Assembly: GCA_028689615.1 (NCBI GenBank)
Contig: JAQVCV010000010.1
Span: 1 to 64,000 of the forward strand
Source: Bacteroidales bacterium
GTDB lineage: Bacteria > Bacteroidota > Bacteroidia > Bacteroidales > TTA-H9
Length of the DNA: 64,000 nucleotides
Direction of reading: 5' to 3'
Part shown: positions 54,622 through 63,643 of the stretch, one piece after another
Layout: the number at the start of each line of letters is the position of its first letter
Position numbering within the stretch: position 1 is the stretch's first letter
Notes under the pieces: model-generated
What the model saw: the letters and a program-made list of their open reading frames with translations, nothing else
What the model was told of the DNA's origin: nothing
The model's database searches: none
Made by a program: the position numbers and the translations under genes

Positions 54622-55233
54622 ATGAGTTTAAAAGCACTTATCGATTTTTTTATCCCACCTCCAAAATGGAGGTTGGCAGCAAGTCTGACAGGTGGTATTT
54701 TGATTGGTTTAATGGCCTTCTTATTTCGTATAAGCAATGCTACCTCCTACCTGGGCGATGCCCCTGAGACCTGTGTCAATTGCCATGTAATGCAACCACA
54801 ATTTGCTACATGGTTCCACAGCTCTCATCGTGAGGTTGCTACATGCAACGATTGCCATGTGCCTCATAACAACTTTGCAAATAAATATTACTTTAAAGCA
54901 AAGGATGGCCTGAGGCACGCAACTATGTTTACCCTCAGAGCCGAGCCTCAGGTTATGCGCATCGGTGACGATGGAAAAGAGGTGGTCCAAAAAAACTGTA
55001 TCCGCTGCCATTCCGACTTGCTTGATGACCCTCTAATGGCAGGTTACGAACAACAATTTAATGTTCATCGTACTGACAGGCCTTGTTGGGATTGTCATCG
55101 GGAAATCCCTCACGGTAGAGTTACCAGCCTTGCTTCAACATTCAATACACATGTTTCTAAACACCCTGATCCTGTCCCTCAATGGATACACAATTTGCTT
55201 AAAAAAGAAGTTAACAATAATAAAATTAAATAG
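54622..55233 (+). CDS. nrfH: Cytochrome c nitrite reductase small subunit (NrfH)
   Basis: 203 residues. An N-terminal membrane anchor (about residues 17-38) is followed by four haem c sites: CVNCH, CNDCH, CIRCH and CWDCH. NrfH (NapC/NirT family) takes electrons from menaquinol and passes them to NrfA. It is directly followed by nrfA (2-nt gap). The first haem has the family's Met ligand (CVNCHVM). Confidence 0.95.
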   Translation: MSLKALIDFFIPPPKWRLAASLTGGILIGLMAFLFRISNATSYLGDAPETCVNCHVMQPQFATWFHSSHREVATCNDCHVPHNNFANKYYFKAKDGLRHATMFTLRAEPQVMRIGDDGKEVVQKNCIRCHSDLLDDPLMAGYEQQFNVHRTDRPCWDCHREIPHGRVTSLASTFNTHVSKHPDPVPQWIHNLLKKEVNNNKIK

Positions 55234-55235
55234 TT

Positions 55236-56738
55236 ATGAAATCAGAATCTAAAAAAAGAACCTTTTCTACCTGGATCATTTTTGGTGTGACCGTGGTAGT
55301 TGTTTTCCTCCTGGGCCTTCTTGCCGCCAGCATCGTGGACCGTAGAGCCGAAGGCGAATTTGTTTACAAGCCTAAAGCCTCTTTCGAACCTCAGGAGACC
55401 CGAAATCAGGTATGGGGTATTAACTTCCCAAGAGAATACCAAAGTTATATGAAAACCGCCGATACTACTTTCCGAAGTAAATATAATGGTAGTGCGATGA
55501 TCGATATGCTTGCAGTTGATCCACGTTTGGTTGTGCTTTGGGCAGGTTATGGATTTTCTAAAGATTACAACCAGGGACGTGGTCATGCTTATGCCATAAA
55601 AGATGTCGTGAATTCGTTAAGAACAGGTGCACCAAAGTCGGCCGAAGACGGACCTATGCCTTCAACCTGTTGGACATGTAAAAGTCCGGATGTGGTAAGG
55701 GTTATGAGTGAAAAGGGCGTGAGAGAATACTATACCGGTACCTGGGCTTCACTGGGTCACGAAATTGTTAATCCGATCGGTTGTGCCGATTGTCATGACC
55801 CTCAAAGCATGAATCTTAGAATTACACGTCCAACATTAATTGAAGCCTTCCAGCGTCAAGGAAAGGATATTACCAAGGTTAGCCATCAGGAGATGAGGTC
55901 GCTCGTCTGTGCACAATGCCATGTTGAATACTACTTTGATAAAAGTGACAAAAAGAGCAACTACCTCACCCTGCCTTGGGATGGCGGCATGACAATGGAG
56001 GCTATGGAGGCCTATTATGACAACCTGGGTTTCTCTGATTGGACTCATGCTTTAAGCAAGGCTCCTATGCTTAAAGCACAACATCCCGATTATGAACTAT
56101 ATACAATGGGTGTACATGCCGACAGAGGGGTTAGCTGCGCCGATTGCCACATGCCATACAAATCGGAGGGGGGACAAAAATTTACAGATCATCACATTCA
56201 AAGTCCTTTAAACAATGTGGCAAATTCTTGCCAGGTTTGCCACAGAGAGGAGACCGCCAAACTCATTGCCAATGTTTTTGAGCGCCAGGATAAAATTATT
56301 GAAAACAGGGACAAGTTGGAGGAGTTGCTTGTTAGGGCTCACACAGAAGCAAAACTTGCCTGGGATAAGGGAGCAACTGAGCAAATGATGTCAGGAGCTT
56401 TAACCGATATCAGGCATGCTCAATGGCGTTGGGACTATGCAGCAGCAAGTCACGGCGCTTCATTTCATGCACCATTGGAAACATCCAGGGTGATCTCAAA
56501 AGGTATCGAGAAGGCTCAGGAGGCTAGATTAAAGCTAACCCGTGTTTTAAATGCTTTAGGCGTGGTTGATGAAGTGCCTTATCCTGATATTGACACCAAG
56601 GAGAAAGCGCAGGCATACATTGGTCTGCCGGCTGAAAAACTTAAGGCCGATAAAAACGAGTTCCTGAAAACAATGCTCCCGCAGTGGGTAGAAGCTGCCA
56701 AAGTAAGGGAATCGGGCTGGAAGGTGACCTATCTCTAG
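55236..56738 (+). CDS. nrfA: Ammonia-forming cytochrome c nitrite reductase (NrfA)
   Basis: A 500-residue periplasmic pentahaem enzyme that reduces nitrite to ammonium with six electrons. The active-site haem motif with Lys ligand is CWTCK (residues about 145-149). The other haem sites are CADCH (twice), CAQCH and CQVCH. The AQCHVEYYF segment holds the Tyr and Glu that bind calcium at the active site, and the distal His lies in KFTDHHIQSP. The uncleaved N-terminal helix may stay as membrane anchor. A hairpin terminator follows. No regulator gene is nearby. Confidence 0.96.
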   Translation: MKSESKKRTFSTWIIFGVTVVVVFLLGLLAASIVDRRAEGEFVYKPKASFEPQETRNQVWGINFPREYQSYMKTADTTFRSKYNGSAMIDMLAVDPRLVVLWAGYGFSKDYNQGRGHAYAIKDVVNSLRTGAPKSAEDGPMPSTCWTCKSPDVVRVMSEKGVREYYTGTWASLGHEIVNPIGCADCHDPQSMNLRITRPTLIEAFQRQGKDITKVSHQEMRSLVCAQCHVEYYFDKSDKKSNYLTLPWDGGMTMEAMEAYYDNLGFSDWTHALSKAPMLKAQHPDYELYTMGVHADRGVSCADCHMPYKSEGGQKFTDHHIQSPLNNVANSCQVCHREETAKLIANVFERQDKIIENRDKLEELLVRAHTEAKLAWDKGATEQMMSGALTDIRHAQWRWDYAAASHGASFHAPLETSRVISKGIEKAQEARLKLTRVLNALGVVDEVPYPDIDTKEKAQAYIGLPAEKLKADKNEFLKTMLPQWVEAAKVRESGWKVTYL

Positions 56739-56943: not shown

Positions 56944-56999
56944 CAAAAAATGGGCCAGGGGGGGGGTCACCTTTTTACAAAAATCGACATTAATATATA
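56944..56999 (+). repeat. Conserved 56-nt G9 element, left copy
   Basis: CAAAAAA, a GGGC block, nine G at 56958-56966, then TCACCTTTTTAC and GACATTAATATATA. It matches the right copy (63099-63154, opposite strand) at 51 of 56 positions by hand alignment without gaps. A second conserved block (TGTGATCGTGACGAAG, 57003-57018) follows at once. The copy lies directly before the sigma gene's GTG start codons. It may be a promoter/operator, a leader element or a duplicated segment. Confidence 0.8.
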
Positions 57000-57009
57000 T
57001 AGTGTGATC

Positions 57010-57591
57010 GTGACGAAGTTTTCTACGGAACAAATTTTAGAAGGAATCGTTAGTAACGACACACATGTGCTCGAGCATATTTATCGTTCTTTCTTTCCGA
57101 AAACTCTGGTTTATGTCAGATCAAATGGAGGTACCCGCGAAGATGCCTACGACGTGTTTCAGGAATCAGTTGTAATAGTACTTCAAAGGGTGCGAAAAGA
57201 ACCTTTGGTGCTGAATTGTTCATTCGAGACCTATTTGATATCGATCGTTAAAATACTTTTTTATCACATGCGTTTAAGCGCTAAAAAACGAAATGCCGTT
57301 TTGTTGGATTACGAAAAGCTTACCGAGGAGATAGAAGAGATTGATGGCGAATTTCTCGAAACCTACAGACAGAACCAAATGTCAAACATCATACAGCGGC
57401 ATTTTATAGATCTGAGTGAAGGGTGCCAAACCCTGCTTCGACTCTATATTGAACGGGTCTCTATACGAGAAATCGCTGACATGATGGGTGTAAGCGAAGG
57501 TTTTGTTAAGAAGAAGAAATATGCGTGTAAGCAAAAATTAATTAAACGTGTCATGGCCGACTTCGGCTCAAAAGAATTTTTTTATGAATAA
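57010..57591 (+). CDS. ECF-type RNA polymerase sigma factor
   Basis: About 193 residues. Region 2 is FSTEQILEGIVSNDTHVLEH, followed by AYDVFQESVVIVLQRV, and region 4 (about residues 120-190) has CQTLLRLYIERVSIREIADM and GVSEGFVKKKKYACKQKLIK, a helix-turn-helix. I place the start at GTG 57010 (or GTG 57004) because the ATG at 56950 lies inside the conserved 56-nt element, where the other copy has no ATG. The gene's end overlaps the downstream membrane protein gene by 8 nt, typical of sigma/anti-sigma pairs. Confidence 0.82.
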   Translation: MTKFSTEQILEGIVSNDTHVLEHIYRSFFPKTLVYVRSNGGTREDAYDVFQESVVIVLQRVRKEPLVLNCSFETYLISIVKILFYHMRLSAKKRNAVLLDYEKLTEEIEEIDGEFLETYRQNQMSNIIQRHFIDLSEGCQTLLRLYIERVSIREIADMMGVSEGFVKKKKYACKQKLIKRVMADFGSKEFFYE

Positions 57592-58324
57592 TCAAACCGA
57601 CGAGCAGTTGTTAAATGGTTTTCTTGCTGGAAGCCTTAATCAAAGCGAAATCAAGGATTTGTCTACACGCCGGATGACCAATCCCGATTTGGACCGAAAA
57701 CTTAGGCTGGCGTCAGCCATCGACGATCCGCTTTTAGATTGGCAATCGTTGCAACTTCGTAAAAAACTTGCCGATATCCACAAAAAGGAGGACTCTTATA
57801 GCGGGCTTTTTTATTCATTTGTAAAAAGGAAATTTGCAGTACCTGCCGCAGCTGCTATGTTTGTAATTCTTGTAGGGGTAGTTTACTTTTTCAGCAATTC
57901 TCCAGTCAATAGTGATAACCTATACGCTGCTTACTACGAGCCTGTGAAGCCGTTTTTCATGCAGCGTTCTACAAATGTGGTTGCTGATGAGTCCACAGAT
58001 TTTGCGCGTGGCATGCAATGCTATGATTCCAAAAATTTTTCTGATGCTGCTAAGTTGCTATCCGGTCAGGCTGGCAATATGGCTGCTCGTTTTTACCTGG
58101 CGATCTCGATGATGGAACTTGGTGATTTTAAGAAAGCTTCTGAAAACCTGAGTGTTGTTGCTGCCGATCAGTCGAACCTTTTCAACGATCAAGCTACATG
58201 GTATCTGGCTTTATCTTATCTTAAGATGGGTGATATAGAGAAAACTCGAACAGAACTCAAACGAATTGCCTCTGCTCAAAGTTACTACAACGATAAAGCA
58301 CTTGAACTTCTGGAAGAATTGTAG
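57584..58324 (+). CDS. Membrane protein with TPR-like domain, probable anti-sigma factor
   Basis: 246 residues from the ATG at 57584 (MNNQTDEQLLNGFLAGSL). The cytoplasmic N-terminal 80 residues resemble sigma-binding segments of Bacteroidota anti-sigma factors (LLNGFLAGSLNQSEIKDLST). One transmembrane helix lies at about residues 84-103 (FAVPAAAAMFVILVGVVYFF). The C-terminal 140 residues form a TPR-like helical repeat domain (FARGMQCYDSKNFSDAAKLL ... FYLAISMMELGDFKKASE). With Lys/Arg before the helix, the TPR part should be periplasmic. The 8-nt overlap with the sigma gene supports a sigma/anti-sigma pair. The role is inferred. Confidence 0.72.
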   Translation: MNNQTDEQLLNGFLAGSLNQSEIKDLSTRRMTNPDLDRKLRLASAIDDPLLDWQSLQLRKKLADIHKKEDSYSGLFYSFVKRKFAVPAAAAMFVILVGVVYFFSNSPVNSDNLYAAYYEPVKPFFMQRSTNVVADESTDFARGMQCYDSKNFSDAAKLLSGQAGNMAARFYLAISMMELGDFKKASENLSVVAADQSNLFNDQATWYLALSYLKMGDIEKTRTELKRIASAQSYYNDKALELLEEL

Positions 58325-58362
58325 CCTGATTAGTTTTTTGTTCTGTATGCCATTGAATCAAA

Positions 58363-61300
58363 TTAAAGTTTACCCCGTGCTTTCTTAACGATCACGAACA
58401 AGGCTCCTAGAAGCAATATTGAAAGCGTTAAAATCGTATAGGGTAACCTCTTTTGTTCGCTTAGCGAAACAATGGGTTGGTTTGAGCCAATCATTACATA
58501 CGATGACCAGAAATAAGGATGAGATCTTAACCTGTCAGCCTGTTCCAGATAGTTTAGTTTTGCCTGCTTCAGTGCGTTATCAATTGGCTCTCCTTGGATC
58601 AGGTTGTTGTAGAAGATGGGCATCAAACCCGATGCAGACTCATCCTCAGCTTCCCATAAAGTCATTACAACCGAAGGAACTCCCGAATAAATGAATCCAC
58701 GAGCAAGGCTCATAACACCTTCTCCGTTAATTAATTGCCCTATTCCTGTGTTGCAGCTACTCAATACAGCTAATCTGGCGTTGAGATCCAGGTTGTAAAC
58801 TTCATAAGCGTTTAGCATCTGATCTTCTGTGCTGTCGGGAATATTTGAAAATATCATTTTGCTGTACATCGGGTTGTCTTTGTCAATCATGGTATGAAGA
58901 GCCAGATGTAAAATTTCATAATCGCCAGATATTTTTTTGAATACCCGTTCTGTTGCCTGCTCTTTCATGAATATCTCACCTCCACTGATAGTGTTTGAGA
59001 TCTGTCTCACCTCCTCCCGAATCCCGGGGATGTCTCGTAGAGCAAGTACATCGGAGATTGTATCTTTTGTTGTTGCTTCTCTGTTTTGGTAAATTGGCGC
59101 AAAGCCAATAAAGGGTTTCTGCCCGCTTTTCTTCTTGGGATTGCTAATGTAATTTTGGGAAGCAGTGTAACTGTAGCGGATCGTATAGTGTTTTAAAAGA
59201 TAGTCCAAGGTGTGGTAATCAGGTATCTTTGATTTGGGCAAGGCCCTGATCAGGGTTTCGAAAGGGATGTATCCGAGTATGCCATCAGGTATGATTATCA
59301 AATGAGATGAATGAATGTGCGGAATGCTCGGCTCAATTAATGTTTTATAGAGCAATAAAGAAGATTTGGTATAAGCCGAAAACCTTTCATTAGGCTCTCC
59401 AAGCAGCCCATGCCTGATATTGTCAATATATCCGGATACTAAAATTGGAAAATCGCTTTTCAAGGGGGTTGTATGAAGCAAGAATGTGTCTTTAGAAAGA
59501 ATAAAGGTGTATAATAAATCGTTGGTGAGAGAGTATTCAATGATGGTTTCGTTTGATAGTTTATCACGTAATTCTTTAACTGATAACATTTTATTACCAT
59601 ATCTGTTAGACTGGATATTTAGATTCGAATCTTTTGTTTTTGTCATCACCAATTCCAGCTCTTGCTCTAGTTCAAAAAGCTTTTCTCTCCAAAGGTCGAT
59701 TTTTGAAAGTTTTGGATTCTCCATTTTGTATTCATCATAAATCAGCTTTTTATATCCAGCGATGTTGTTTCTGAGCTTTCGAGCCTCCGATTGTTGATTC
59801 CTTTTAGTTTTATCTTTATAGTTGATGCCTTCGCGATCGTTGAGTCCTGCCATTAAGATAGCCGACTTTCCATTCTCAGCAAATCTAAAAGCCTCTGACA
59901 GATAATAATTGTCACCAGTTACATTGTATAAGGTGGTAGTGGTGCGTAAGGCTCCAGCCAGATACTCGCGCAATCTGCTGCTGATTGCCAAGTTGCTTTC
60001 CTCTGAACTCATTTGGTTGCGAATCTGGTTGATTACGTTAGAAGTAGTTTTGTAATTATTGAAACTTAAATATAAGTCTTTGAGTTGATTATTGGTTTTA
60101 TATAACCTATAAAATGCATCTCCTTTTCCTGCCAATGCATTCATTAGGTAATAATCTGGTGATTGAAAGGAGGTGGATGGGCTTGTATGAGGATTTGATT
60201 CGTTGAATCCATCTTCCAAAGATAACAATGCGTTGTGATAATATTGAAGTCCTTCTGTCAGATTTTCCTGGTTTAAGGCCAGCTCTCCAAGTCTTAGATA
60301 GCATCCGGCTACGTCCCTGTTTTTTTCTCCAAAAAGCTGTTTATTAATCTTTAAGGCTTTTTTGTAATAATTTGCTGCTAATTTGTTTTGTCCTGTTGTG
60401 TGTAAAAAGTTGCCATACTGTAAATAGCTTGCTGATAACTCGTAGTGAAATTTGCCATATTTGGCTTCTGCCATCTCGATAGCTTTTAAAAAATTCTTTT
60501 CAGCCTGATCGTATTCCTGCAGGGCTTCCAGACTTCGACCTAAATTCCTGTAAGTTTTTATGTTATTTAATGCTGACTCACTTCCTGATAAACTAGCCAT
60601 GTAGTAGTCAACAGATTTTTTATACTCCTGTCTGATGAAATATATGTGCCCAATGTTCATCTCAATCTCCTTTATCCGTGGATGCCCGGGGCTTTTTCGG
60701 CGAAGCATGCTAAGGGATTTGTTGTAGTACATCAGGGCTCTTTCGTAATCTCCAGATAAGCTGTAAAGATTCCCTTTCAAATTGTAAACGATGTCTATTT
60801 CTGTTGTTTCTACTTTTTTTAAACTTAAAAGGAGTGATTCAGCTGTATTCAACATGTTGAATGCAGAATCAAGGTTCCCAAGTGTGGTTTCTGTTTGACC
60901 CAGGTTAAGAAATGCAAGTGCAATGTTTTGAATATCTGTCGATTGTCCTCCATTTTGCTTTTCAGCTAATGATCTTAGTTGATAGTCTCTGGCTTTACTG
61001 TAATCACCCATTCTTGCAAAAGTAATCCCCAGATTTTCATGATATTTGGCGAGAAGTGCTGTCTTATTTTCTTTTTTGGAGGCTAATGAGTTGATTGCTA
61101 AGTTTAAGTTTTGAATTGATTCTGTAAAACGCTCCATGTTTGAATAGGCCATTCCTAAATTATTGTAGGTAACCGATAAAGAGGTGTCGTTGTCAGCGAG
61201 GACAGTTCTTTTAATCTCCAGAGACTTCTTTAGCAGGTTAATAGCTGCGAAATTCTCGTTGAAAATGATTTTAAGTGTCCCCTGCAAGTGTTTTATATCA

Positions 61301-61650
61301 CCCAGAAGTAACGGAGAATTAAGTTTCCAATTGGAATATAGACTGTCTGCAGAGCCAATGGATGATTGAGAGAGTTGAAACTCTCTGTTGTTTTTATACA
61401 GAGTGGCTAGTTTGAACAAGGCCGCTACGTATCCTTCATGGTTTTTGGCCTCTGAGAGCGATTTTAATGCTTGTATGTAAACCTTTTTAGCCTCTTCGGT
61501 TTTGCCAATTTTCTCCAGCCTTGCCGCTTCTTTTTGCCATTCAGGAATAACATCTGGATTGAAAACAGCCTGTAGGGTGGGGGTGTATATAAAGAAAAAC
61601 AGTAAAGTTGTCAAAACAACAACAAACAATACGATGGCTTTCAGTCGCAT
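58363..61650 (-). CDS. TPR-CHAT protein (caspase-like peptidase) with two membrane anchors
   Basis: 1095 residues. An N-terminal hydrophobic helix (residues 4-23) is followed by about ten TPRs (residues about 35-480), a helical spacer (about 500-690), and a C-terminal CHAT peptidase domain. The catalytic dyad is His 919 (EILHLALHTMID) and Cys 966 (LAVLSSCNTGIGQLINGEG). A second membrane helix lies near residues 1067-1087 (YTILTLSILLLGALFVIVKK) before a short basic tail. If both helices span the inner membrane, TPR and CHAT lie in the periplasm. A -7-like box (TAAATTTG, minus strand, 61715-61722) precedes it. It is convergent with the sigma/anti-sigma genes (38-nt gap) and fits a protease that acts on the membrane TPR protein. 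Confidence 0.82.
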   Translation of the reverse strand: MRLKAIVLFVVVLTTLLFFFIYTPTLQAVFNPDVIPEWQKEAARLEKIGKTEEAKKVYIQALKSLSEAKNHEGYVAALFKLATLYKNNREFQLSQSSIGSADSLYSNWKLNSPLLLGDIKHLQGTLKIIFNENFAAINLLKKSLEIKRTVLADNDTSLSVTYNNLGMAYSNMERFTESIQNLNLAINSLASKKENKTALLAKYHENLGITFARMGDYSKARDYQLRSLAEKQNGGQSTDIQNIALAFLNLGQTETTLGNLDSAFNMLNTAESLLLSLKKVETTEIDIVYNLKGNLYSLSGDYERALMYYNKSLSMLRRKSPGHPRIKEIEMNIGHIYFIRQEYKKSVDYYMASLSGSESALNNIKTYRNLGRSLEALQEYDQAEKNFLKAIEMAEAKYGKFHYELSASYLQYGNFLHTTGQNKLAANYYKKALKINKQLFGEKNRDVAGCYLRLGELALNQENLTEGLQYYHNALLSLEDGFNESNPHTSPSTSFQSPDYYLMNALAGKGDAFYRLYKTNNQLKDLYLSFNNYKTTSNVINQIRNQMSSEESNLAISSRLREYLAGALRTTTTLYNVTGDNYYLSEAFRFAENGKSAILMAGLNDREGINYKDKTKRNQQSEARKLRNNIAGYKKLIYDEYKMENPKLSKIDLWREKLFELEQELELVMTKTKDSNLNIQSNRYGNKMLSVKELRDKLSNETIIEYSLTNDLLYTFILSKDTFLLHTTPLKSDFPILVSGYIDNIRHGLLGEPNERFSAYTKSSLLLYKTLIEPSIPHIHSSHLIIIPDGILGYIPFETLIRALPKSKIPDYHTLDYLLKHYTIRYSYTASQNYISNPKKKSGQKPFIGFAPIYQNREATTKDTISDVLALRDIPGIREEVRQISNTISGGEIFMKEQATERVFKKISGDYEILHLALHTMIDKDNPMYSKMIFSNIPDSTEDQMLNAYEVYNLDLNARLAVLSSCNTGIGQLINGEGVMSLARGFIYSGVPSVVMTLWEAEDESASGLMPIFYNNLIQGEPIDNALKQAKLNYLEQADRLRSHPYFWSSYVMIGSNQPIVSLSEQKRLPYTILTLSILLLGALFVIVKKARGKL

Positions 61651-61762
61651 CAGTAATCGAAGAGTTAACAGTTAGCAGTAGTTATTAAACGGATCAATTC
61701 CCGTTCAGTGTTTGCAAATTTATATCTTTCGGTCTTGTTGTGCTAATAAAGTTTATAAAAAA

Positions 61763-61789
61763 AGGCGGCACATCCGCAGAAGGCCGCCT
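61763..61789 (-). terminator. Terminator after the dockerin/T9SS protein gene
   Basis: The stem AGGCGGC/GCCGCCT with a 13-nt loop, followed on the minus strand by TTTTTT. It ends the 61809 gene before the CHAT promoter. Confidence 0.85.
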
Positions 61790-61808
61790 ATTTTTGATTT
61801 AGGTTAGG

Positions 61809-62993
61809 TTAACGTCCTATAAATAGCTTCCCTGTTGTCGATAGTTCTGGGGTGGTGGCTAACCGCAATCGATAGGTAACAACCGATTCGTTGTTCCTGA
61901 GGTCGATTATTCGGCTATAGGTGTTGCTCCCTGGATTTACCGAAAATTCCTGAGATGCAACAAGGCGTCCTGAAAGATCAAATATGTCCAAAACCGCATG
62001 CTGTTGAGCTTCGGATACAATTGATACATGAAGCGTGTTCCCTTGTAGATAGATTTGATGATTCATTTCAATCTCAGAAACCGTTGTTGCTGCCGAAGTT
62101 TTTAAGGTAACATTCTCAACAACCTCACCGTTGCTTGAAATGAAATGGCTCTCTATGGCTGGTGTTAGCAAAATGTTATTCCCTGATAAAGTGAATATTA
62201 CACTTCCGGCAATTAAATTAACCGGTTTAGCATCTTCTGCCATCCAGGTAATTCTTAATTGCTGGTCTTTAATTGTATATTGACATCCAGGAAGTTGAGA
62301 TTCAAGGCTGAGGATCGATGTTTGTTCATCGAGGTCAAAAACCAGTACAAAACCTGTAACCGAATTATCCTTTGCCAGTATAATGTTTTGATTGTCATAA
62401 GAATTAGCTCCATTAACATCCATAAAGACCGATGCATGATTACCTATAGTCAGATTGGGAACATAAGTACCGTTTACATCAGCTGCCGACGTTCCTCCCA
62501 TATTGGTATTGTCTTTCAGTCCTGTGGTAACAGTTGCTGAAGTAAAAAACCAATCGCCCGCTGGGAAAGGGTATCCGTTTAAAAACCATCCTATTACAAT
62601 GGTTGTGTAGTCATCCCATCCTACCTGACCGTCGCCAGTTACATCAGCAGCAACTTGTTGTATGGGAGATAGATTGGTGAATCCCAGAAGGTGAAGAAGC
62701 ACAAGATACGAGTCGGTTAGTGTTACACCTCCTGCCGATAATGTTGTAGAAGCGTTGAGCTCATAGGTGCCATCAGGAATGTTAAGGAAGGTGTATTTTC
62801 CTGCATTATCAGTGTTTACAGTTGCTATCACCTCACCTGACATAGTTGTCATGGTTACCTGTGATGATGGAATAGGTTTGGAAGGATTGTTGTGATACAA
62901 AAGGTATCCTTCAACTGTGTTCTGTGCAAAAGCGCCAGAAACAAAAGCAAGTAACGAAAAAGAGATCAGTAAAAGATTAGTTTTTAATTTCAT
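61809..62993 (-). CDS. Secreted dockerin/cohesin-like protein with T9SS sorting domain
   Basis: 394 residues from the ATG at 62993 (MKLKTNLLLISFSLLAFVSG, a signal peptide). It has an N-terminal carboxypeptidase-regulatory-like beta sandwich (residues about 25-90: VEGYLLYHNNP ... GKYTFLNIPDGTYEL), then a type I dockerin-like segment (VAADVTGDGQVGWDDYTTIV) with calcium-loop Asp spacing, then a cohesin-like beta domain (VTGFVLVFDLDEQTSIL ... VNLIAGSVIFTL). The last 80 residues resemble a T9SS domain (LHVSIVSEAQQHAVLDIFDL). It is probably a surface adhesin or scaffold. The right copy of the G9 element lies upstream of it. Confidence 0.8.
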   Translation of the reverse strand: MKLKTNLLLISFSLLAFVSGAFAQNTVEGYLLYHNNPSKPIPSSQVTMTTMSGEVIATVNTDNAGKYTFLNIPDGTYELNASTTLSAGGVTLTDSYLVLLHLLGFTNLSPIQQVAADVTGDGQVGWDDYTTIVIGWFLNGYPFPAGDWFFTSATVTTGLKDNTNMGGTSAADVNGTYVPNLTIGNHASVFMDVNGANSYDNQNIILAKDNSVTGFVLVFDLDEQTSILSLESQLPGCQYTIKDQQLRITWMAEDAKPVNLIAGSVIFTLSGNNILLTPAIESHFISSNGEVVENVTLKTSAATTVSEIEMNHQIYLQGNTLHVSIVSEAQQHAVLDIFDLSGRLVASQEFSVNPGSNTYSRIIDLRNNESVVTYRLRLATTPELSTTGKLFIGR

Positions 62994-63002
62994 GGTGAAC
63001 AA

Positions 63003-63643
63003 GTTTAGGTTTAGTATGAAATAATCAGTATTTTCTATAATTTGGAAAGGTAAAGGTACGAACAGGTTTCTTAATCACAATCACAACCAATACGTGCCTA
63101 TATATTAATGTCAATTTTGGTAAAAAGGTGACCCCCCCCCAAGCCCTTTTTTTGACTTTTTTTTAAAACACATGTTGATTTTATTTATGTGATATGATGT
63201 AATGCAAATAATATCAAGTTATTGTGATCAGGATTGTGATGAAAATTTTTTTTCATTTTTTTTCATTTCAAATGTGATAAATTGCACTTAATGCTCAGTT
63301 TAACCTTGGATTTTCAACCTGAATTCTTTTTGGGTTGTTTTGGCACCCCCAGTTTAGTTGTTTTGTTCAGCTTTTGTTATGAAAATTGCCGAAATAGTCG
63401 AGTCAGTCCTCGTTAAAATCCTACTATTTTGCTATCTCACTGAATACAAGTGTTATTATGCCTTTTGAGTGTTTCGTTTTGGTGATACAGTTCAGATGCC
63501 AGGTTAAATCACTCAAAGAAATACCATTTAAGGATAGAGGCTGCATACTTGTTTCAAATTTTTATGCTGGTTAGTAAATATTTGAATGAAAATTTATACC
63601 TTTGCGCCCTATTATTAATTTAACCAAGGAAGAGGTATTTGTT
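63003..63643. other. Intergenic region of about 640 nt between two divergent transcription units
   Basis: No gene is supported. It holds the right G9 element (63099-63154), the second conserved block (63070-63085), a -7-like box TACCTTTA (minus strand, about 63050-63058) for the dockerin gene, and the rpsU -7 box TACCTTTG at 63597-63604. The middle part (63160-63560) is AT-rich and featureless. Confidence 0.5.
63099..63154 (-). repeat. Conserved 56-nt G9 element, right copy
   Basis: Reverse complement of the left copy with 51 of 56 matches by hand; the nine-G run (nine C at 63132-63140 on the plus strand) is the same length. Both copies point inward. Downstream on the minus strand lies TGTGATTGTGATTAAG (63070-63085), matching the block next to the left copy but 13 nt further away. 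The start codon of the dockerin gene is about 105 nt downstream. Confidence 0.8.

Follow-up and report, generated by a model that had tools for sequence, protein, structure and literature searches.

A putative ECF sigma factor switch, controlled by a CHAT protease, for a surface protein of the type IX secretion system in Bacteroidales

Can a CHAT domain protease control a sigma factor outside type III-E CRISPR systems? The question is raised by four genes in a 64,000-nucleotide stretch of DNA from a Bacteroidales bacterium (assembly GCA_028689615.1, contig JAQVCV010000010.1, positions 1 to 64,000; hereafter the window). These encode an extracytoplasmic function (ECF) sigma factor, a one-pass membrane protein with tetratricopeptide repeats (TPRs), a TPR-CHAT protein and a surface protein of the type IX secretion system (T9SS). 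An initial annotation proposed that periplasmic CHAT cleaves the TPR part of a membrane anti-sigma factor, so that the sigma factor turns on surface genes. As judged from sequence, this protease-sigma mechanism is well supported but unproven. The reading that we favour, and consider likely though well short of certain, is an autoregulated, CHAT protease-controlled ECF sigma switch for the T9SS surface protein, in which the anti-sigma factor would be cut after Arg128.

Promoter elements and genes of the module

The sigma factor gene (57004..57591, forward strand) was identified by matches to TIGR02937 (E 7e-16) and Sigma70_r4_2 (E 8e-6), and orthologues are present in 7 relatives. It overlaps the putative anti-sigma factor gene (57584..58324, forward strand; ATG at 57584), which encodes 246 amino acids. 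The TPR-CHAT protease gene (58363..61650, reverse strand; 1095 amino acids, CHAT E 3.5e-58) is convergent on this pair. The T9SS surface protein gene (61809..62993, reverse strand) lies beyond it. The overlap and the convergent arrangement are as initially annotated.

What the initial annotation overlooked is a 56-bp element at both ends of the module. The two copies are identical at 50 of 56 positions and each is oriented inward, toward its own gene. Element 1 (56951..57001, forward strand; model R1 63 bits, E 2e-18) lies directly 5' of the sigma gene and consists of a G-tract, GTCACCTTTTTAC and then GACATTAATATATA. The sigma open reading frame (ORF) as listed, from 56950, reads through this element; the true start is probably the GTG at 57004 or 57010. 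Element 2 (63098..63150, reverse strand; model R1 58.7 bits, E 6e-17) lies 5' of the T9SS protein gene. For sigma-70 consensus promoters and terminators, the module showed no excess over shuffled sequence.

Two congeners and 2 other genera of the family likewise have both elements, placed at the same two genes. A counterpart of element 1 is also found 5' of orthologous sigma genes, and the position of element 2 is conserved in 4 relatives of the family and in other families. In each of these relatives the two copies are of one and the same variant, which in the congeners is GTTACCTTTT..GACATTAATATA. Beyond the family, the motif GTTACCTTTT-N9-GNATTAATA occurs close 5' of many sigma genes and of the linked T9SS genes. 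Across 8 loci from different families, the likeness of sigma and T9SS promoters had a mean score of 18.4 within a locus versus 9.3 between loci. Only 2 of 40,320 permutations reached this degree of matching, for sites chosen by motif and partly by eye. In the distant genome G123, the 3.2 Mb of sequence contain exactly two sites that fit the locus-specific pattern with up to 3 mismatches, and these lie at the sigma and T9SS genes of the module. Since the same element precedes both genes, and matches within loci, the sigma factor very probably drives its own gene and that of the surface protein. An autoregulated sigma factor, with the T9SS protein as its main direct target, is the simplest reading of the paired promoters, which lend strong support to the original suggestion that the sigma factor turns on a surface gene.

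The whole window genome contains 7 copies of the element, that is, 5 beyond the module pair. Four of these stand 5' of operons encoding T9SS sorting-domain proteins and the fifth faces a contig end. Three copies (L022 3147-4160, L023 5012-5838 and L024 5962-6769, on contigs C79, C87 and C58) are separated from the first T9SS protein ORF by some 0.75-0.95 kb of conserved sequence with no convincing gene. This sequence may be a long leader or the remains of a decayed gene. At L026 (5099-5575, contig C5), the element is followed by a gene for a LytTR-type DNA-binding-like protein and then by T9SS protein genes; the LytTR-like product is possibly a second regulator under the sigma factor. Each element opens with a run of 6-10 G residues (56957-56966 and 63131-63140 in the window; likewise at L047-L050), the length of which varies among copies and relatives. 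This G-tract, just 5' of the -35-like region, could change length by slippage and so cause phase variation.

The surface protein belongs to a single family (alignment A6) with a signal peptide, an SdrD-B-like part, a dockerin-like motif, a cohesin-like part and a sorting domain. Its profile matches in the PDB were to SdrD, dockerins, cohesin 2xdh and a possible T9SS C-terminal domain chain. Por_Secre_tail, Dockerin_1 and Cohesin exceed the cut-off in orthologues. TIGR04183 and PF18962 (T9SS type A cargo C-terminal domain) are likewise above the cut-off in orthologues and below it in the window copy, where TIGR04183 gives E 0.07. The assignment to the T9SS, made in the initial annotation, holds because orthologues in the same genomic position score to 6e-12. 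At the mapped loci, full-length family members adjoin CHAT or lie divergent from the sigma gene. We speculate that the dockerin-like and cohesin-like parts, being in one protein, might permit head-to-tail assembly at the surface. A 385-residue cassette of SdrD, dockerin, cohesin and sorting parts also forms the C-terminus of giant T9SS proteins, of which there are up to 15 or more per genome (G059, G101, G102 and G123). The giants reach about 6,500 residues at most, with open frames to 6,522 codons. G123 gives no support for them as additional sigma targets, since both of its copies of the element are at module genes.

Genes for NrfH- and NrfA-like multihaem cytochromes (nitrite reduction) immediately precede the module in the window (54622-56738).

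Conservation and topology of the CHAT protein and the anti-sigma candidate

A lack of any conserved gene neighbourhood in relatives had been named at the outset as evidence that would count against the mechanism. Four-gene synteny with paired elements recurs in relatives of the family, and the sigma, anti-sigma and CHAT neighbourhood is conserved across the order and the phylum. When a profile of the TPR protein was run against 198 genomes of the order, 86 proved to have relatives; further ones were found in other classes of the phylum. Perlabentimonas carries an anti-sigma relative (L087). For 56 anti-sigma loci there was enough flanking sequence to assess gene order. The sigma gene is directly 5' of the anti-sigma gene in 45 of them, and a CHAT gene lies within 6 kb in 30, of which 23 are convergent and downstream.

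The initial annotation had also suggested a search for co-occurrence of the sigma factor, the TPR protein and CHAT. The pairing of the last two was scored over 119 genomes of the order, taken from different genera. CHAT accompanies a strong anti-sigma match in 37 of them; such a match occurs alone in none and CHAT alone in 30, and 52 genomes have neither (Fisher P 1e-12, a value that ignores phylogeny). Of 150 CHAT domains in these genomes, 26 end within 600 bp of a member of the anti-sigma family, in convergent orientation, and 36 are within 6 kb. CHAT is also present, often nearby, in 44 of 48 anti-sigma-bearing genomes from other parts of the phylum. Hence, CHAT is tied to the anti-sigma family. 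The T9SS family is found in 35 of the 119 genomes at E 1e-20; CHAT, present in 37/37 genomes with a strong anti-sigma match, thus tracks the anti-sigma family better than it tracks the T9SS protein.

Genomes G033, G054 and G024 have 12-18 CHAT domains apiece, most of them away from the anti-sigma family. At L164 (399-8456), a T9SS dockerin protein gene is followed by two tandem CHAT genes, and no sigma gene was found in the 12.6 kb covered. The window genome itself has a second CHAT protein (L037, contig C102), with a signal peptide and without a C-terminal anchor. Its gene is divergent from genes encoding 284 and 248 amino acids, the latter with one membrane helix by eye, and the layout recalls a sigma factor plus anti-sigma factor. 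Pfam matched neither neighbour, and no homologue of the first was present among the compared loci. Hence, this locus was not counted as support.

The module TPR-CHAT protein has predicted helices of membrane type at both its N- and C-terminal ends, as initially annotated, and the two catalytic residues fall exactly at the annotated positions: His919 (codon 58896-58894, reverse strand) and Cys966 (58755-58753, reverse strand). Most sigma-linked CHATs have a hydrophobic N-terminal anchor. A C-terminal transmembrane anchor with a basic tail is found in 28 of 31 linked CHATs versus 9 of 38 unlinked ones (P 3e-8). The terminal helices, the basic tail and the positive-inside rule place the TPR and CHAT parts, by prediction, in the periplasm, in agreement with the periplasmic CHAT of the original proposal and not with the cytoplasmic location that would have counted against it. 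Except for two same-direction cases without the anchor, sigma-linked CHATs form one supported clade (39 rows, SH-aLRT 98). The C-terminal anchor changes three times on this tree, the alignment for which included C-terminal columns.

His and Cys are invariant in 21/21 aligned module CHATs, and Asp1003, which may play the part of separase Asp2151, is also invariant. The AlphaFold2 model (pLDDT 83) matches Csx29 (Z 29.9) and the separase ctSPD (PDB 5fby; Z 25.4 over 321 residues, root mean square deviation 3.6). Foldseek with the same model also retrieves DdvA of Myxococcus. As modelled, the protein has the caspase-haemoglobinase fold, with the His and Cys, of a CHAT/separase clan CD peptidase. 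A PDB profile search for an alignment of CHAT with separase, with the Arg-binding Asp in mind, did not find separase and returned only DdvA, weakly.

The AlphaFold2 model of the anti-sigma candidate (pLDDT 88) has three N-terminal helices (4-13, 18-30 and 32-69), a membrane helix (83-102), a flexible linker and TPRs from residue 132 (alignment A4 numbering; add 2 for full length). A single transmembrane helix is predicted in 64 of 75 family members. The TPR part resembles the YbgF TPR (Z 15.7), and TPR matches filled the lists in fold searches with the whole model. The layout is that of a class I anti-sigma factor: a gene directly 3' of the sigma gene, one transmembrane helix and a small helical N-terminal domain.

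A candidate cleavage site and the proposed switch

Across 50 sequences, the linker of the anti-sigma candidate is variable save for an Arg-Ser-Gly/Ala spot, with Arg in 47 and Ser in 39. We regard Arg128-Ser129 (57965..57970, forward strand) as the candidate scissile bond, a prediction from column conservation. The site thus differs from the one first proposed, since it falls in the juxtamembrane linker instead of the TPR part. Arg is found in this linker stretch in 70 of 72 sequences from CHAT-bearing genomes order-wide and in 34 of 36 phylum-wide, and in 0 of 3 from CHAT-less genomes. Separases, the nearest eukaryotic relatives of CHAT, cleave after Arg.

We propose that the membrane anti-sigma factor, with its cytoplasmic helical domain, single transmembrane helix, periplasmic linker and TPRs, would hold the sigma factor inactive. 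The separase-like TPR-CHAT protein, anchored at both ends in the inner membrane, would face the periplasm. On a periplasmic or outer-membrane signal, CHAT would cut the juxtamembrane linker after Arg128. Intramembrane cleavage of the RseP type, a homologue of which is present, would then probably release the sigma factor. The shared promoter (G-tract, GTNACC, GACATTAATA) would let free sigma factor transcribe both its own operon and the adjacent gene for the dockerin/cohesin-like T9SS protein; in the window genome, several other T9SS operons may be transcribed in the same way. The module, its conservation and the paired promoters, together with the topology, the catalytic dyad and the Arg-Ser spot, are observed in or predicted from the DNA and its translations. 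Cleavage of the anti-sigma factor by CHAT is what we infer from co-occurrence, matching topology and the conserved linker spot.

Several points weigh against this mechanism. Csx29 cleaves Csx30 after a residue other than Arg, so that Arg specificity of the CHAT protease cannot be assumed; Csx29 also lacks the Arg-binding Asp of separase. Roughly one in two of the anti-sigma loci with sufficient flank lacks a CHAT gene within 6 kb. The N-terminal 93 amino acids of the putative anti-sigma factor have no Pfam match at E 1. It is thus the order of the genes, the topology and the helical fold that speak for an anti-sigma role. The CHAT-less controls for the Arg-Ser spot are just three sequences, drawn from two families, nor is it rare for a linker of this kind to contain an Arg by chance. 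Conservation of the column is thus a stronger argument than the presence of Arg.

Other explanations account for parts of these data. The inverted elements, which flank the module in the window, might be terminal repeats of a mobile unit and the cluster a transposed island. This is scarcely credible, and we rejected it because single further copies stand 5' of T9SS operons, because the orientation of the element tracks the downstream gene, and because element variants match within loci. Moreover, other families have the T9SS gene divergent beside the sigma gene and retain the element, and no transposase was found among the ORFs inside the module.

A more serious alternative is that CHAT itself belongs to the surface pathway under regulation: its periplasmic task would be the processing or quality control of the T9SS protein, or of others, and the anti-sigma factor would be inactivated by a different protease or by binding alone. 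CHAT does stand in tandem behind the T9SS gene at many loci, sometimes without a sigma gene (the T9SS-CHAT-CHAT order of L164), and the T9SS already employs PorU, a related clan CD peptidase. We nevertheless think this unlikely: all 37 genomes with a strong anti-sigma match have CHAT, versus a T9SS family confined to 35 of 119, and the Arg-Ser spot sits in the anti-sigma linker. It is less probable still that the TPR domains of both proteins form a stable periplasmic complex in which CHAT is a binding co-sensor, or scaffold, and catalysis is secondary. TPR domains do bind proteins, and the CHAT domain within the anti-sigma factor DdvA may be such a scaffold. Conversely, a pure scaffold has no need of the invariant His and Cys, and the conserved spot is in the flexible linker, not solely in the TPR domain. 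Taken together, these considerations leave a CHAT-controlled switch as the reading that we prefer. A wider claim, to which we give even weight for and against, is that membrane-anchored, separase-like CHATs throughout the phylum serve a large family of TPR anti-sigma factors as their Arg-specific site-1 proteases. Every such factor would have a nearly private regulon, namely itself and a dockerin/cohesin protein, and the signal read by the TPRs is perhaps the state of secretion of that protein.

Comparison with known systems

The closest parallel is the CASP module of type III-E CRISPR, which comprises the TPR-CHAT protein Csx29, Csx30 and CASP-sigma (PMC10028731, PMC9729208). Both arrangements have a TPR-CHAT protease, a sigma inhibitor, an ECF sigma factor and sigma sites in their own locus, and the folds of the CHAT proteins match. 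However, the ORFs listed for 50-64 kb of the window include no Cas7-11 gene, the remaining genome not having been searched for one. Here, both CHAT and the inhibitor candidate are membrane proteins, with the periplasm as their predicted meeting place; the candidate has one transmembrane helix and TPRs, unlike the soluble Csx30. The predicted cut after Arg is unlike the reported Csx30 site, and the regulon would be a T9SS surface protein in place of defence.

DdvA is a transmembrane anti-sigma factor of Myxococcus xanthus that contains a CHAT domain (PDB 8rot, 8rw5; PMC4374960; PMC12288465). The ddvS promoter needs DdvS, which controls a phage-defence island (PMC4374960, PMC12288465). Common to DdvA-DdvS and the present module are an ECF sigma factor, a transmembrane anti-sigma factor involving CHAT, and a switch with no CRISPR guide complex. 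In DdvA, CHAT is within the anti-sigma chain, whereas the mapped loci encode two separate membrane proteins, and the targets here would be T9SS surface proteins instead of the phage-defence island. Thus, the module resembles both systems in its predicted working but fails to show their defining features (Cas7-11; a single-chain CHAT anti-sigma factor).

Less close parallels are found elsewhere. Like RseA/RsiW-type systems, the module has a one-pass anti-sigma candidate, a site-1 cut predicted close to the membrane on the periplasmic side and an RseP homologue; the site-1 protease would be a separase-like CHAT, versus DegS in Escherichia coli, or others. For the ECF54 group, CHAT-domain proteins occur in the sigma gene context and control by CHAT and other proteases has been proposed; the group is described as lacking an anti-sigma factor (PMC8999054). 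The present module shares the nearby CHAT-domain protein and the proposed proteolytic control, and differs in having an anti-sigma candidate. In Porphyromonas gingivalis, the sigma factor SigP is under the two-component system PorXY and controls the T9SS machinery (PMC4800418, PMC7712824). This also ties an ECF sigma factor to the T9SS, whereas our module has a membrane anti-sigma candidate and CHAT, with a cargo protein as target. The Pfam search found no FecR-type domain in the anti-sigma candidate, which sets it apart from FecR/TonB cell-surface signalling.

The novelty suggested by the initial annotation stands in part. Links of CHAT with sigma factors beyond type III-E were already on record, in DdvA (PDB 8rot) and in ECF54 (PMC8999054). 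For the split, membrane-anchored, T9SS-linked form, no description was found in the literature searched, a coverage that mostly excludes subscription papers, and this phylum-wide form appears undescribed. The proposal lends itself to unusually sharp tests, since it names a single predicted bond (Arg128-Ser129), a single catalytic cysteine (Cys966) and a pair of promoter sites. If it is true, periplasmic CHAT proteases gain a function and a substrate, and T9SS surface proteins a dedicated regulator. The logic of type III-E CRISPR and of DdvA, by which a protease frees a sigma factor, would then also exist in a CRISPR-free, membrane-anchored and phylum-wide form, and an older CHAT-sigma switch may have been the source from which the type III-E module was put together.

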